64,000 bases of DNA. Source: an uncultured Aquimarina sp. (GTDB taxonomy: Bacteria; Bacteroidota; Bacteroidia; Flavobacteriales; Flavobacteriaceae). Under the pieces are notes generated by a model. That model saw only the letters and a program-made list of their open reading frames with translations, did not search any database and was not told the origin of the DNA. The stretch spans positions 62,001 to 126,000 of the forward strand of contig CANMML010000007.1 in assembly GCA_947499005.1 (NCBI GenBank), written 5' to 3'. Positions 51,359-58,395 of the stretch are shown in pieces. Position 1 is the stretch's first letter; every line of letters begins with the position of its first letter. A program made the position numbers and the translations under genes.

Positions 51359-51673
51359 ATGGACGTTACTATAAAAATTACAGATAGAGAAGGAGTAGTA
51401 CATGAGGTACAAGCCCCAACGGATATGGCAATGAACCTAATGGAGGTTTGTAAAGCTTATGAATTACCTGTCGAAGGTACTTGCGGAGGAATGGCTATGT
51501 GTGCTTCTTGTCAGTGTTATGTTACTTCTGAAACAACCTTACCAGAAATGGGAACTGATGAAGATTTAATGTTAGCTGAAGCCTTTCACGTAGAAGATAA
51601 TTCGCGTTTAGGATGTCAAATTCCAATCACTCCAGAATTGGATGGTTTAGAAGTTACATTGGCACCAGAATAA
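51359..51673 (+). CDS. Adrenodoxin-type 2Fe-2S ferredoxin
   Basis: This 104-residue electron carrier has cluster cysteines in GTCGGMAMCASC (about residues 40-51), with the fourth in RLGCQIP near residue 85. Length and the -LEVTLAPE end are typical. It probably passes electrons from the preceding FNR to sulfite reductase. Its last 41 codons (from 51552), with the terminator that follows, occur a second time at 58193-58371. Confidence 0.92.
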   Translation: MDVTIKITDREGVVHEVQAPTDMAMNLMEVCKAYELPVEGTCGGMAMCASCQCYVTSETTLPEMGTDEDLMLAEAFHVEDNSRLGCQIPITPELDGLEVTLAPE

Positions 51674-51700
51674 TATGATTTCTTTTTATATATTTTACGA

Positions 51701-51728
51701 CCACACTTTTTTAAAGTGTGGTTTTTTT
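51701..51728 (+). terminator. Terminator of the sulfate-assimilation cluster
   Basis: CCACACTTT pairs with AAAGTGTGG around a three-base loop, followed by seven Ts. A diverged copy is at 58341-58368. Confidence 0.9.
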
Positions 51729-51802
51729 ATGGTTAGAACTAACTAATTTTCCTTGTTAGTAGATTTTATTGAATTTTTTAGAAGAAAAAATCAATATAAA
51801 AT

Positions 51803-51835
51803 TTGTTTTTTCAAAAGATTAATTTCATACATTTG
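51803..51835 (+). promoter_or_regulatory. Promoter of the polyamine operon
   Basis: TTG (51803-51805), a 22-base spacer and TACATTTG (51828-51835) match the Bacteroidota consensus. Transcription would start near 51842, about 350 bases before the speA ATG. Confidence 0.6.
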
Positions 51836-51841
51836 AAATAT

Positions 51842-52192
51842 AATGAGTCCAAAGAGACGCATTGCCTATTTACTGATGAAAACGAATTTCATGTTCGGGC
51901 TTAGGAGCATAAAGAAGTCTGCTCCAAAAGCTGCTTTAGGGATAAAGAACCGAATCAACAGGCTGACTTTTGAAATTAGAACTACACTACAATTATTGAA
52001 GTCTCTTCAATTTTCACCGTCCACGGTATTTATTTTTCGTATTTGAGTTGAACTTATATAGGAAGAGCATATAGCAAGCTTTTTTACTAAGCTTTATTGT
52101 CTCACCTTTTTGGGTTACAGATTGTATCTATTTATAGTCTGCTAGGGATTCTTACCCTTATTTTAATCTGAATCAACTTAAAATTTACGAAA
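51842..52192 (+). promoter_or_regulatory. Long structured leader of speA
   Basis: This 350-base leader carries several hairpins. TTCGG (51893-51897) with CCGAA (51950-51954) encloses GGAGCA/TGCTCC (51904-51909 with 51920-51925). TTGAAG/CTTCAA lies at 51996-52010, ACCG/CGGT at 52016-52027 ahead of a T-rich stretch, AAGCTT/AAGCTT at 52076-52094, CAGA/TCTG at 52118-52141 and AGGG/CCCT at 52144-52158. A 67-codon frame (51843-52046) starts on the predicted first base, with 7 Arg and 7 Lys, and could be a leader peptide. A polyamine- or arginine-responsive control is an inference. Confidence 0.5.
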
Positions 52193-56744: not shown

Positions 56745-56772
56745 ACCTGATTTTGTGTTTAAAAAAAAGAAA

Positions 56773-58158
56773 ATGAACAATTTAAAAATAATAGGAAGTG
56801 AAGAGTGGTGTGATTTTCCATTACTCGGAATCCCAGCAATTAAAGCTCGTATTGATTCGGGAGCGCAGACGTCATCTATTCAGGCTAGCAAGGTTAAGGT
56901 GTTTTATAAAGATATGGAAGAATGGGTGCGTTTTGAAGTAAATCCTTTAAAAGAAAATAGAAGTATTAGTATTAAGTGCGAGTCCAAAATCTTTGATAGA
57001 AGAAACGTAAAGAGTTCGACAGGGATATCTGAAGAGCGGTTGGTTATAAAATCTAATGTTTCTATTGGAGAAGATAATTTTGAAATAGAACTCACCTTAG
57101 CCAATCGAGATTCCATGGAGTTTAAAATGCTATTAGGGCGAGAAGCTTTAAACAACAGGTATTTAGTGAATTCTTCGGATAAATTTATACAGTCACCTTT
57201 ATCTTTAGAGGCACTAGGTGAAAAGTATGCTGTTTTTAAAAAAGAAAGTACTGGACTAAAGATCGCCTTATTGGCAAGTAATACCGAATTGTATAGCAAT
57301 AAAAGGATTATGGAAGCAGGAAAAGCGAGAGGTCATGAAATGGTGTTTTTAGATGTTAAGCAAGCTTACATGAAATTCGATGCCAAAGAACCTCAAATAA
57401 GGTATAGAGGAGGGAATGTTATTGATGAGTTCGATGCCATTATTCCACGAATTAAACCCTCAGCGACATTTTATGCTTGTGCGCTTATTAGACAATTTGA
57501 TTCTATGGGAACTTATTGTTTGAATTCGGCTTCGGCTATTACACAGTCACGAGATAAATTATTAGCTACACAGATTTTTGCCAAGAATGATATTCAGATA
57601 CCAATTACTGGGTTTGCAAATTCTCCTTTAGATACGAAAGATTTAATAAAAATGGTAAATGGAGCACCTCTTATAGTAAAGCTTTTAGAGAGCACTCAAG
57701 GACAAGGAGTCATTTTAGCAGAAACAAATAAAGCTGCGGAAAGTGTAATAAATGCTTTTAAGAGTGTTAAAACCAATATTCTTGTGCAAGAATTTATAAA
57801 AGAAGCCAATGGGCAAGATATTCGTTGTTTTGTTATTAATGGAAAAGTAGTGGCTTCCATGCAACGACAAGCAGAGAAAGGAGAGTTTCGAGCAAACATT
57901 CATCAAGGAGGAACGGCTTCTAAGATTAAGATTACACCCGAAGAAAGAAAACTAGCCATTAAAGCTGCTAAGATTTTAGATTTGCCTGTGGCTGGAGTCG
58001 ATATTATTCGATCAAATAAAGGGGCTTTATTGTTAGAGGTAAATTCTTCTCCTGGGTTACAAGGAATAGAATCTGCTACAGGTTTGGATGTAGCGAATAT
58101 GATGATTGAAGCTATTGAAAAGAAGTTGAAATATAATTCTGATAATAATTATGTATAG
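56773..58158 (+). CDS. RimB-like retropepsin domain fused to RimK-type ATP-grasp ligase
   Basis: This is a 461-residue protein from ATG 56773 (the frame continues to a GTG 18 bases upstream). Residues 1-150 are a retropepsin-like PF05618 ('zinc protease') domain with the aspartyl motif ARIDSGAQTSS (D28). Residues 160-461 are a RimK-type ligase: QGVILAETN, EFIKEANGQDIRCFV and GVDIIRSNKGALLLEVNSS. RimK adds glutamates to ribosomal protein S6; in pseudomonads RimB removes them. The fusion puts both activities in one chain. Whether S6 is the target here is not shown. Confidence 0.85.
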   Translation: MNNLKIIGSEEWCDFPLLGIPAIKARIDSGAQTSSIQASKVKVFYKDMEEWVRFEVNPLKENRSISIKCESKIFDRRNVKSSTGISEERLVIKSNVSIGEDNFEIELTLANRDSMEFKMLLGREALNNRYLVNSSDKFIQSPLSLEALGEKYAVFKKESTGLKIALLASNTELYSNKRIMEAGKARGHEMVFLDVKQAYMKFDAKEPQIRYRGGNVIDEFDAIIPRIKPSATFYACALIRQFDSMGTYCLNSASAITQSRDKLLATQIFAKNDIQIPITGFANSPLDTKDLIKMVNGAPLIVKLLESTQGQGVILAETNKAAESVINAFKSVKTNILVQEFIKEANGQDIRCFVINGKVVASMQRQAEKGEFRANIHQGGTASKIKITPEERKLAIKAAKILDLPVAGVDIIRSNKGALLLEVNSSPGLQGIESATGLDVANMMIEAIEKKLKYNSDNNYV

Positions 58159-58192
58159 TTAAGAATATAGAGGCTCATAATATAAATAACTA

Positions 58193-58314
58193 GAACTGAT
58201 GAAGATTTAATGTTAGCTGAAGCCTTTCACGTAGAAGATAATTCTCGTTTAGGATGTCAAATTCCTATTACTCCAGAATTGGATGGTTTAGAAGTTACAT
58301 TGGCTCCTGAGTAA
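58193..58314 (+). pseudogene. 3' remnant of a second ferredoxin gene
   Basis: Bases 58193-58314 match 51552-51673 without gaps. The first 52 are identical. The rest has six changes, all third-position and silent (for example TCG to TCT, GAA to GAG). The frame reads to the same stop codon but has no start. The similarity continues into the terminator that follows. It is the tail of a formerly complete ferredoxin gene. Confidence 0.92.
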
Positions 58315-58340
58315 TAAATTTTCTTTTTATATTTTTACAA

Positions 58341-58368
58341 CCACACTTAGTTTAAGTGTGGTTTTTTT
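58341..58368 (+). terminator. Terminator after the ferredoxin remnant
   Basis: CCACACTT pairs with AAGTGTGG, then seven Ts. It is the diverged twin of 51701-51728: the stem is kept while the loop differs. Confidence 0.85.
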
Positions 58369-58395
58369 ATGTTTACTCAAAACAAACACAGTTTT

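Follow-up and report, generated by a model that had tools for sequence, protein, structure and literature searches.

Transformable bacteria can integrate foreign DNA through one homologous and one non-homologous edge, a process known as homology-facilitated illegitimate recombination (HFIR; as described in excerpts of PMC3240628 and PMC5361080). Among the effector genes of the type VI secretion system of Vibrio cholerae, an incoming module anchored upstream is proposed to displace the resident gene, and in one step the displaced 3' end was shifted behind the newcomer (passages of PMC5361080). Transformation tracts of Bacillus subtilis are mosaic, with resident DNA lying between donor segments (excerpts of PMC13344027), and tandem duplications made by transformation need repeats in both donor and host and duplicate whole regions (parts of PMC3784515). 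Here we describe a locus of an uncultured Aquimarina sp., contained in a window of 64,000 nucleotides (contig CANMML010000007.1, positions 62,001 to 126,000, renumbered from 1), in which a block of genes running from the arginine decarboxylase gene speA to the rimB-rimK fusion (rimBK) is bracketed by two copies of the 3' end of a ferredoxin gene. We consider it likely that an allelic import left the two ferredoxin ends as its scar, a fragment of about 12 kb from a relative of Aquimarina isolate 528 having entered the chromosome in an HFIR-like manner.

The intact 2Fe-2S ferredoxin gene (51359-51673, + strand, as are all genes and RNA elements of the window given below) ends in the 122 nucleotides that constitute copy 1 of the repeat (51552-51673). 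Copy 2 (58193-58314) is a 5'-truncated fragment without the first 64 codons. A preliminary description of the window had reported a repeat with six silent changes and a terminator with another loop, and alignment bears this out: the 122 coding bases align without gaps, the leading 52 are identical, and the 6 differences that follow (51604, 51625, 51628, 51664, 51667 and 51670 in copy 1 numbering) are all synonymous and all at third codon positions. The terminators behind copy 1 (51674-51731) and copy 2 (58315-58368) have the stem ACCACACTT/AAGTGTGGT in common and differ in their loops. One 38-base segment of the repeat is found at two places in the window, compared to a mean of 0 in 100 shuffles, and the ferredoxin end has 2 matches in its own genome, both at this locus. 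Under random changes, six silent changes out of six have a probability of about 1e-4 (3e-4 with transitions weighted double). The confinement of all 6 to the second part is a weaker signal (P = 0.04), with 15 of the 39 degenerate third positions falling in the identical part. Short repeats of 'gctgattgctgattgctga'-like text are also present before the ferredoxin gene, at 51273-51340.

Gene order in relatives was surveyed in 66 Aquimarina genomes, including that of the window (G000) and that of isolate 528 (G048, contig CANLOW010000002.1), which are sisters in the rpoB tree (95/96) with G038 next. When the 10 best candidates per genome were scored, the ferredoxin gene was matched in 64 of the 66 genomes. 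The downstream side of ferredoxin was viewed at 12 loci and the window genes were mapped on 70 loci, drawn from all but 13 of the 64 genomes in which ferredoxin was matched. Four other genomes had a second match, on separate contigs in G037 and G038 and over just 43 and 51 bases in G045 and G059, and the bracketed block was found in 0 of the 65 other Aquimarina genomes searched. The speA gene is present in 36 of the 66 genomes (E 1e-50) and, judged by contig positions in assemblies some of which break here, is adjacent to ferredoxin in no genome other than those of the window and isolate 528. The order in isolate 528 is ferredoxin, block, spacer and the O-acetylhomoserine sulfhydrylase gene 'metB', with a single ferredoxin, no copy 2, and no homolog of gene 58369, the gene that follows copy 2 in the window (58369-60003; family unassigned). 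The gap between rimBK and metB in this isolate (L032 5031-5294) contains an unrelated reading frame of 87 residues on the opposite strand. In G038 the block adjoins a sulfatase-like gene (named by eye) and is not located behind ferredoxin.

The preliminary description had suggested a search for relatives in which ferredoxin is followed directly by the gene that stands behind copy 2, and such a relative exists. In G041, ferredoxin and its terminator are followed by the ATG of a 550-residue homolog of gene 58369 right after the T run, an arrangement also seen behind copy 2. In G062 the same start was recognized by eye behind ferredoxin, as far as the contig reaches. Homologs of gene 58369 were detected in 3 of the 66 genus genomes, the window genome counted, the third being G027, in which a partial 24% match is on a different contig from the ferredoxin gene. 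In a family sample of 397 Flavobacteriaceae genomes, the window genome alone had the gene (1/397). Overall, these gene orders agree with the earlier proposal that the block arrived by recombination involving the ferredoxin end. The pattern named in advance as its refutation, a bracketed block common to all relatives, is not what these genomes show.

Divergence from isolate 528 indicates that the import would extend well beyond the block, which had previously been taken to be the whole of it. Synonymous divergence (dS) between the window genome and isolate 528 was 0.13-0.32 in 11 of the 11 genes compared from sulfite reductase (46562) to rimBK (58158), compared to 0.77 in metB (60081-61388), 1.06 in the gene at 63670, 0.51 in rpoB and 0.47 in rpoC. 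The low-divergence tract (46442-58158) has its left end at about 46.4 kb, takes in sulfite reductase, cobA, cysG, a reductase and ferredoxin, and continues through the block from speA to rimBK. Farther left, three genes at 43.4-46.4 kb gave values of 0.45-0.62 and eight genes at 31.8-42.7 kb gave 1.3-2.6, except one of 0.45 and one that was not computable. Values in two further regions ranged over 0.06-2.2 (19 genes) and 0.83-2.05 (11 genes, of which two could not be computed), and the median for 38 genes outside the locus, calculated by hand, was about 1.0. A change point in third-position differences, from 24% to 14%, was placed at 46442. At its right end the tract retains high identity to the end of rimBK (98.7% in 58000-58151) and stops where copy 2 begins. 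A stretch of short repeats before cobA (48665-48742) also has many scattered matches in G038 and isolate 528.

Slowly evolving genes were allowed for by using G002 as reference and dividing, by hand, the dS to the sister genome by the dS to G002. The ratios within the tract were 0.21 for sulfite reductase, 0.16 for cobA, 0.13 for cysG, 0.21 for the reductase (fnr), 0.13 for ferredoxin (fdx), 0.10 for speB and 0.09 for the deoxyhypusine/homospermidine-synthase-like (DHS) gene, a set that leaves out speA (with saturated dS to G002), Nudix, VOC, rimBK and the gene of 98 residues. Outside the tract the ratios were 0.50 for metB and 0.44 for both rpoB and rpoC. Small genes of the rpoB cluster, which from gene order and start we take to be tuf, nusG, rplK, rplA, rplJ and rplL, gave 0.39, 0.96, 0.27, 0.49, 0.39 and 0.29, respectively.

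Of the two ferredoxin ends, copy 1 is most likely the newcomer and copy 2 what remains of the resident gene, because copy 1 is nearer to isolate 528 and falls inside the low-divergence tract, and the neighbours of copy 2 are gene 58369 and, after it, metB, whose divergence is ordinary. Over 120 bases, isolate 528 has 3 differences to copy 1 and 6 to copy 2, and 6 separate the copies themselves. Similarly, in the 58 bases behind the stop codon copy 1 differs from isolate 528 at 2 positions and copy 2 is clearly different. The preliminary description had held that the second copy evolved as a working gene in another genome. The six silent changes uphold the part of that claim by which the two copies worked in two genomes; the part that made copy 2 foreign is not supported. 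Copy 2 shows 0 amino acid changes, and about 11 would be expected if selection had ceased to act on it when the tract lineages diverged (calculated by hand from about 92 nonsynonymous sites and half of the tract dS of 0.24; about 6 when the dS of ferredoxin itself is used). It was therefore probably cut off recently, after the window strain and isolate 528 had separated in this tract, and the donor would consequently have been a relative of isolate 528 and not isolate 528 itself.

The scar may have arisen in the following way. The ancestor would have had the order ferredoxin, terminator, gene 58369 and metB, the first three as suggested by G041 and G062, and the donor, a relative of isolate 528, would already have had the speA to rimBK block behind its ferredoxin. 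From about 46.4 kb rightwards the resident chromosome would have been replaced by homologous recombination in the sulfur-assimilation genes; the low divergence of this tract is observed, and direction and mechanism are what we infer from it. The right end of the incoming fragment, just behind rimBK, would have lacked a resident counterpart and would have been joined within the resident ferredoxin gene at codon 65. The seam itself (58159-58192) can be read directly: behind rimBK the window and isolate 528 remain alignable for some 20-30 further bases, with a 24-base gap, and ferredoxin then begins from codon 65; the end-joining is the conjectural part. The resident 3' end, its terminator and the downstream genes would have been left behind as copy 2, and the imported intact ferredoxin (copy 1) would have taken over.

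Such an event would be of a known kind, with one homologous and one non-homologous edge as in HFIR, its direction being deduced from the sequence comparison. The likeness lies in the homologous replacement on the left, marked by the low-divergence tract and the soft change point at 46442, and in a non-homologous right junction that cut a resident gene, the two genomes parting within about 30 bases behind rimBK. The difference is that the event here is reconstructed from genomes alone, after the fact, and that the tract is long (about 12 kb). The displaced gene 3' end behind the newcomer also recalls the Vibrio cholerae effector genes, except that a housekeeping ferredoxin and polyamine genes are involved here, and in a single event. 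The pattern differs from the tandem duplications made by transformation in that it is not the duplication of a whole region. Beyond the window end, a gene named by eye as purL (65661-69401) has a dS of 0.29 to isolate 528 and is preceded by a gene of 1.06. The sequence of tract, ordinary DNA and then low-dS purL at 65.7-69.4 kb is reminiscent of the mosaic tracts of Bacillus subtilis; the purL stretch is possibly a second imported patch and could be a discontinuous donor segment of the same event. A gene of 209 residues elsewhere in the window genome (C1:184952-185581), with a dS of 0.06 between genes of 1.2 and 0.36, is a possible case of another recent exchange.

Several observations weigh against an import of the tract as outlined above. 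Values of dS as low as those of the tract also occur elsewhere, in 4 of the 38 outside genes (0.06, 0.15, 0.26 and 0.29) and in purL (0.29). Values above about 1 are unreliable, and several such values enter the ratios. The left edge is soft, with intermediate dS at 43.4-46.4 kb and a change point supported by a log-likelihood difference (dLL) of 19.9. As to direction, isolate 528 itself lacks the scar, but a third donor could have supplied both genomes. An import of this kind does not predict the 52-base identity with which copy 2 begins. The G041 homolog of gene 58369 is just 36% identical (over residues 4-525 of 535), the G062 homolog is cut by the contig end and is maybe frameshifted, and the contigs of several relatives end just behind ferredoxin. 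Finally, the window belongs to a draft assembly of 190 contigs, and the seam is read from this assembly alone.

The main mechanistic rival is a circular donor. Circular or tandemly repeated DNA with the block and a ferredoxin 3' end could have entered by a single homologous crossover in the resident ferredoxin gene (Campbell-type integration), which would produce the direct repeat around the block in one step and without end-joining. Its best argument is that copy 2 starts with 52 bases identical to copy 1, a stretch that could be sequence of the circle. In E. coli, linear DNA is lost to degradation or else becomes a circle and integrates through one crossover (parts of PMC3240628). The low-divergence tract running about 5 kb to the left of ferredoxin speaks against this possibility, being unexplained by a circle of the size of the block; moreover, the block of isolate 528 is chromosomal without a second ferredoxin end, and no integrase was found among the 10 proteins scanned. 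We regard this route as unlikely. There is no sign of integrase-type insertion at a gene 3' end, to which the arrival of the block had been likened. Pfam detected no integrase or transposase domain in those 10 proteins (51359-60003; other small reading frames lie outside the scan), ARAGORN found no tRNA in the window, and the repeat does not match the short identical repeats of the att type, being longer than 120 bases and diverged in its second part and terminator.

A slightly less probable explanation reverses the roles of the two copies, so that the newcomer would be the ferredoxin end with gene 58369 and metB, a fragment of a third species that recombined at metB and was joined behind the rimBK of a genome with the order ferredoxin, block and metB, a view close to that of the preliminary description, which took copy 2 to be foreign. 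It would suit the evidence that copy 2 was a working gene until recently and the higher divergence of metB and the gene at 63670 from isolate 528 relative to the tract. The G002-based dS ratio of metB, close to those of rpoB and rpoC, is nevertheless the one expected of resident DNA, and it is the tract, at 0.09-0.21, that is the outlier; a second transfer would still be needed to account for it.

Local duplication, which the preliminary description had kept as its alternative, fares considerably worse and is in our view very improbable. By this account an old event in the common ancestor would have copied the ferredoxin end or inserted the block, and copy 2 and gene 58369 would later have disappeared from isolate 528. 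The ferredoxin-block arrangement common to both genomes fits this scheme, and a deletion in isolate 528 would restore a single copy. Copy 2 would in that case have been free of selection since before the split, and it has no amino acid change; ancestral insertion followed by loss in isolate 528 is disfavoured by this undecayed state. Furthermore, the next relative, G038, has its speA block elsewhere, the low dS of the tract still requires exchange, and a tandem duplication leaves the gene orders of relatives unexplained and sits poorly with a copy 1 that is nearer to isolate 528 than to copy 2. A false join at the 52-base identical stretch, conceivable in a draft of this kind, is scarcely credible given that the seam lies outside the repeat, the exact common stretch is short and the copies differ.

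The block that would have been imported comprises a speA-type arginine decarboxylase (52193-53650; PF02784, the best NCBIfam models being arginine decarboxylases, below their cut-offs), the agmatinase speB (53662-54609; TIGR01230 above cut-off), the DHS gene (54599-55573; PF01916), a small conserved gene without family according to Pfam and the comparison of loci (98 residues; 55592-55888), a Nudix hydrolase (55900-56307) and a VOC/glyoxalase family protein (56319-56744), both assigned by Pfam, and the RimB-RimK fusion (56755-58158; PF05618, PF18030 and PF08443).

The scar is a known kind of event, and the most novel content of the finding is the leader located inside the block. Comparison of blocks revealed a conserved element before speA, and 11 Aquimarina sequences yielded a model (R1) of 133 positions and 35 pairs, which matches the window at 51839-51968, with the partner strand of a pseudoknot extending to about 51972. 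R1 was matched in 33 of the 66 genus genomes, 31 of the 36 with speA and 2 of the 30 without. In these last two the match lies before rimBK (G027) and before Nudix-rimBK (G042), and G019 has a match at its rimBK locus. In the family sample, R1 matched 147 of the 397 genomes (E 0.01), distributed in 105 of 237 genera, weak matches among which may include false ones. Each genome among the matches listed has one, except G203, G243 and G416. The speA gene follows R1 in 55 of the 58 loci that were read, 27 of 30 in Aquimarina and 28 of 28 in other genera, the latter being the best-scoring loci and not a random draw. The distance from R1 to speA is 123-481 nt (median 155), and a crude scan detected a terminator-like hairpin between them in 8 of the 55. 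In Kordia algicida (G416) one leader copy is before speA and the other before RimB-RimK (L301, about 4631-4761, minus strand). The second copy of G243 (L300, about 4345-4481, minus strand) is divergent, and the genes behind it encode a protein of 100 residues, a protein of 475 residues without family, a GSH-S/RimK-like ATP-grasp enzyme and an AstE/AspA-type enzyme.

The fold is supported by covariation. In an alignment of 59 sequences fitted to the R1 model, a procedure that favours R1, 96.1% of cells pair and 29 of the 35 pairs show two-sided changes. Shuffled alignments gave means of 86.6% and 14.3 pairs, 0 of 500 reaching the observed values, and sliding the structure along gave no more than 12 pairs. 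In a MAFFT alignment of the 11 sequences, two-sided changes are seen in 7 of the 35 pairs, a count reached by 2 of 500 shuffles, and further pair types do not exceed shuffles (414 of 500). The pseudoknot is formed between the loop GAAGUC and the sequence GACUUC, which directly follows the closing helix. Its 5 core pairs are present in 59 of 59 sequences, with a double change from G-C to A-U in two of them, and the outer pair varies further. None of the 4227 Rfam models matched 46000-64000 at gathering score. At E up to 10 the matches are at chance level, and inside the RNA they amount to just 17 bases of RF00180 at 13.3 bits, compared to a gathering score of 41.

The same bases also encode a reading frame of 56 codons (51876-52046), the start and length of which are kept in the family-wide alignment. 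The start codon is at one place in 59 of 59 aligned leaders (ATG in 44, TTG in 11 and GTG in 4), the frame spans 50-58 codons in 58 of the 59, G041 being the exception with 83, and the last two residues are RI or RV in 45 of the 59. Stop codons mostly interrupt both alternative frames shortly after the anchor. Behind the fold, changes accumulate at third codon positions (e.g., 508, 355 and 1031 at positions 1, 2 and 3), and within the fold there is no such excess (366, 173 and 341); these counts are from the three largest length groups and are pairwise, uncorrected for relatedness. The third-position excess behind the fold argues that the leader peptide is under selection alongside the fold. 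A non-coding leader RNA, probably a riboswitch, with a frame lost outside Aquimarina, was rejected in view of indels that compensate each other and of the invariant position of the start.

Leader peptides are known before other decarboxylases of the polyamine route, as in the SpeFL-type arrest peptide upstream of speF in E. coli. The likeness with the leader described here is one of position. A closer analog is the odc1 motif of alpha-proteobacteria, in which a pseudoknotted RNA and a conserved upstream reading frame precede a decarboxylase gene of the polyamine route (excerpts of PMC8632094). That motif is a hairpin with a peptide of 11 residues that starts beside the main start codon of ornithine decarboxylase (PMC8632094, same excerpts), whereas the leader here has several helices, a peptide of about 56 residues that runs through the fold, a position 123-481 nt before speA and a distribution in Flavobacteriaceae. 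The spermidine riboswitch, likewise before polyamine genes, is a SAM-I variant with 13 examples in Bacillus and related genera, and the same source, in the parts available, calls earlier claims of polyamine riboswitches unconvincing (PMC10853860). The leader RNA of the block has a fold other than SAM-I. No published report of this leader was found in open-access full text, including the available parts of PMC10853860 and PMC8632094, a body of text that does not cover subscription papers and supplementary motif lists.

On balance, we favour the view that the block begins with a leader of a new class, in which a pseudoknotted RNA is combined with a peptide of about 56 residues, before speA in many Flavobacteriaceae and sometimes before rimBK. 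This leader probably senses a metabolite of the arginine-agmatine-polyamine route, through the RNA or through translation of the peptide, and sets the expression of speA. As a natural case in a marine flavobacterium, the scar shows clearly how a block of genes would pass from one species to another by ordinary recombination that leaves one end sloppy, with no mobile element seen. If the leader is a sensor, polyamine synthesis would be controlled across the family by a switch whose bases act both as structure and as coding sequence, and the occurrence of the leader before rimBK would tie rimBK to the same signal.

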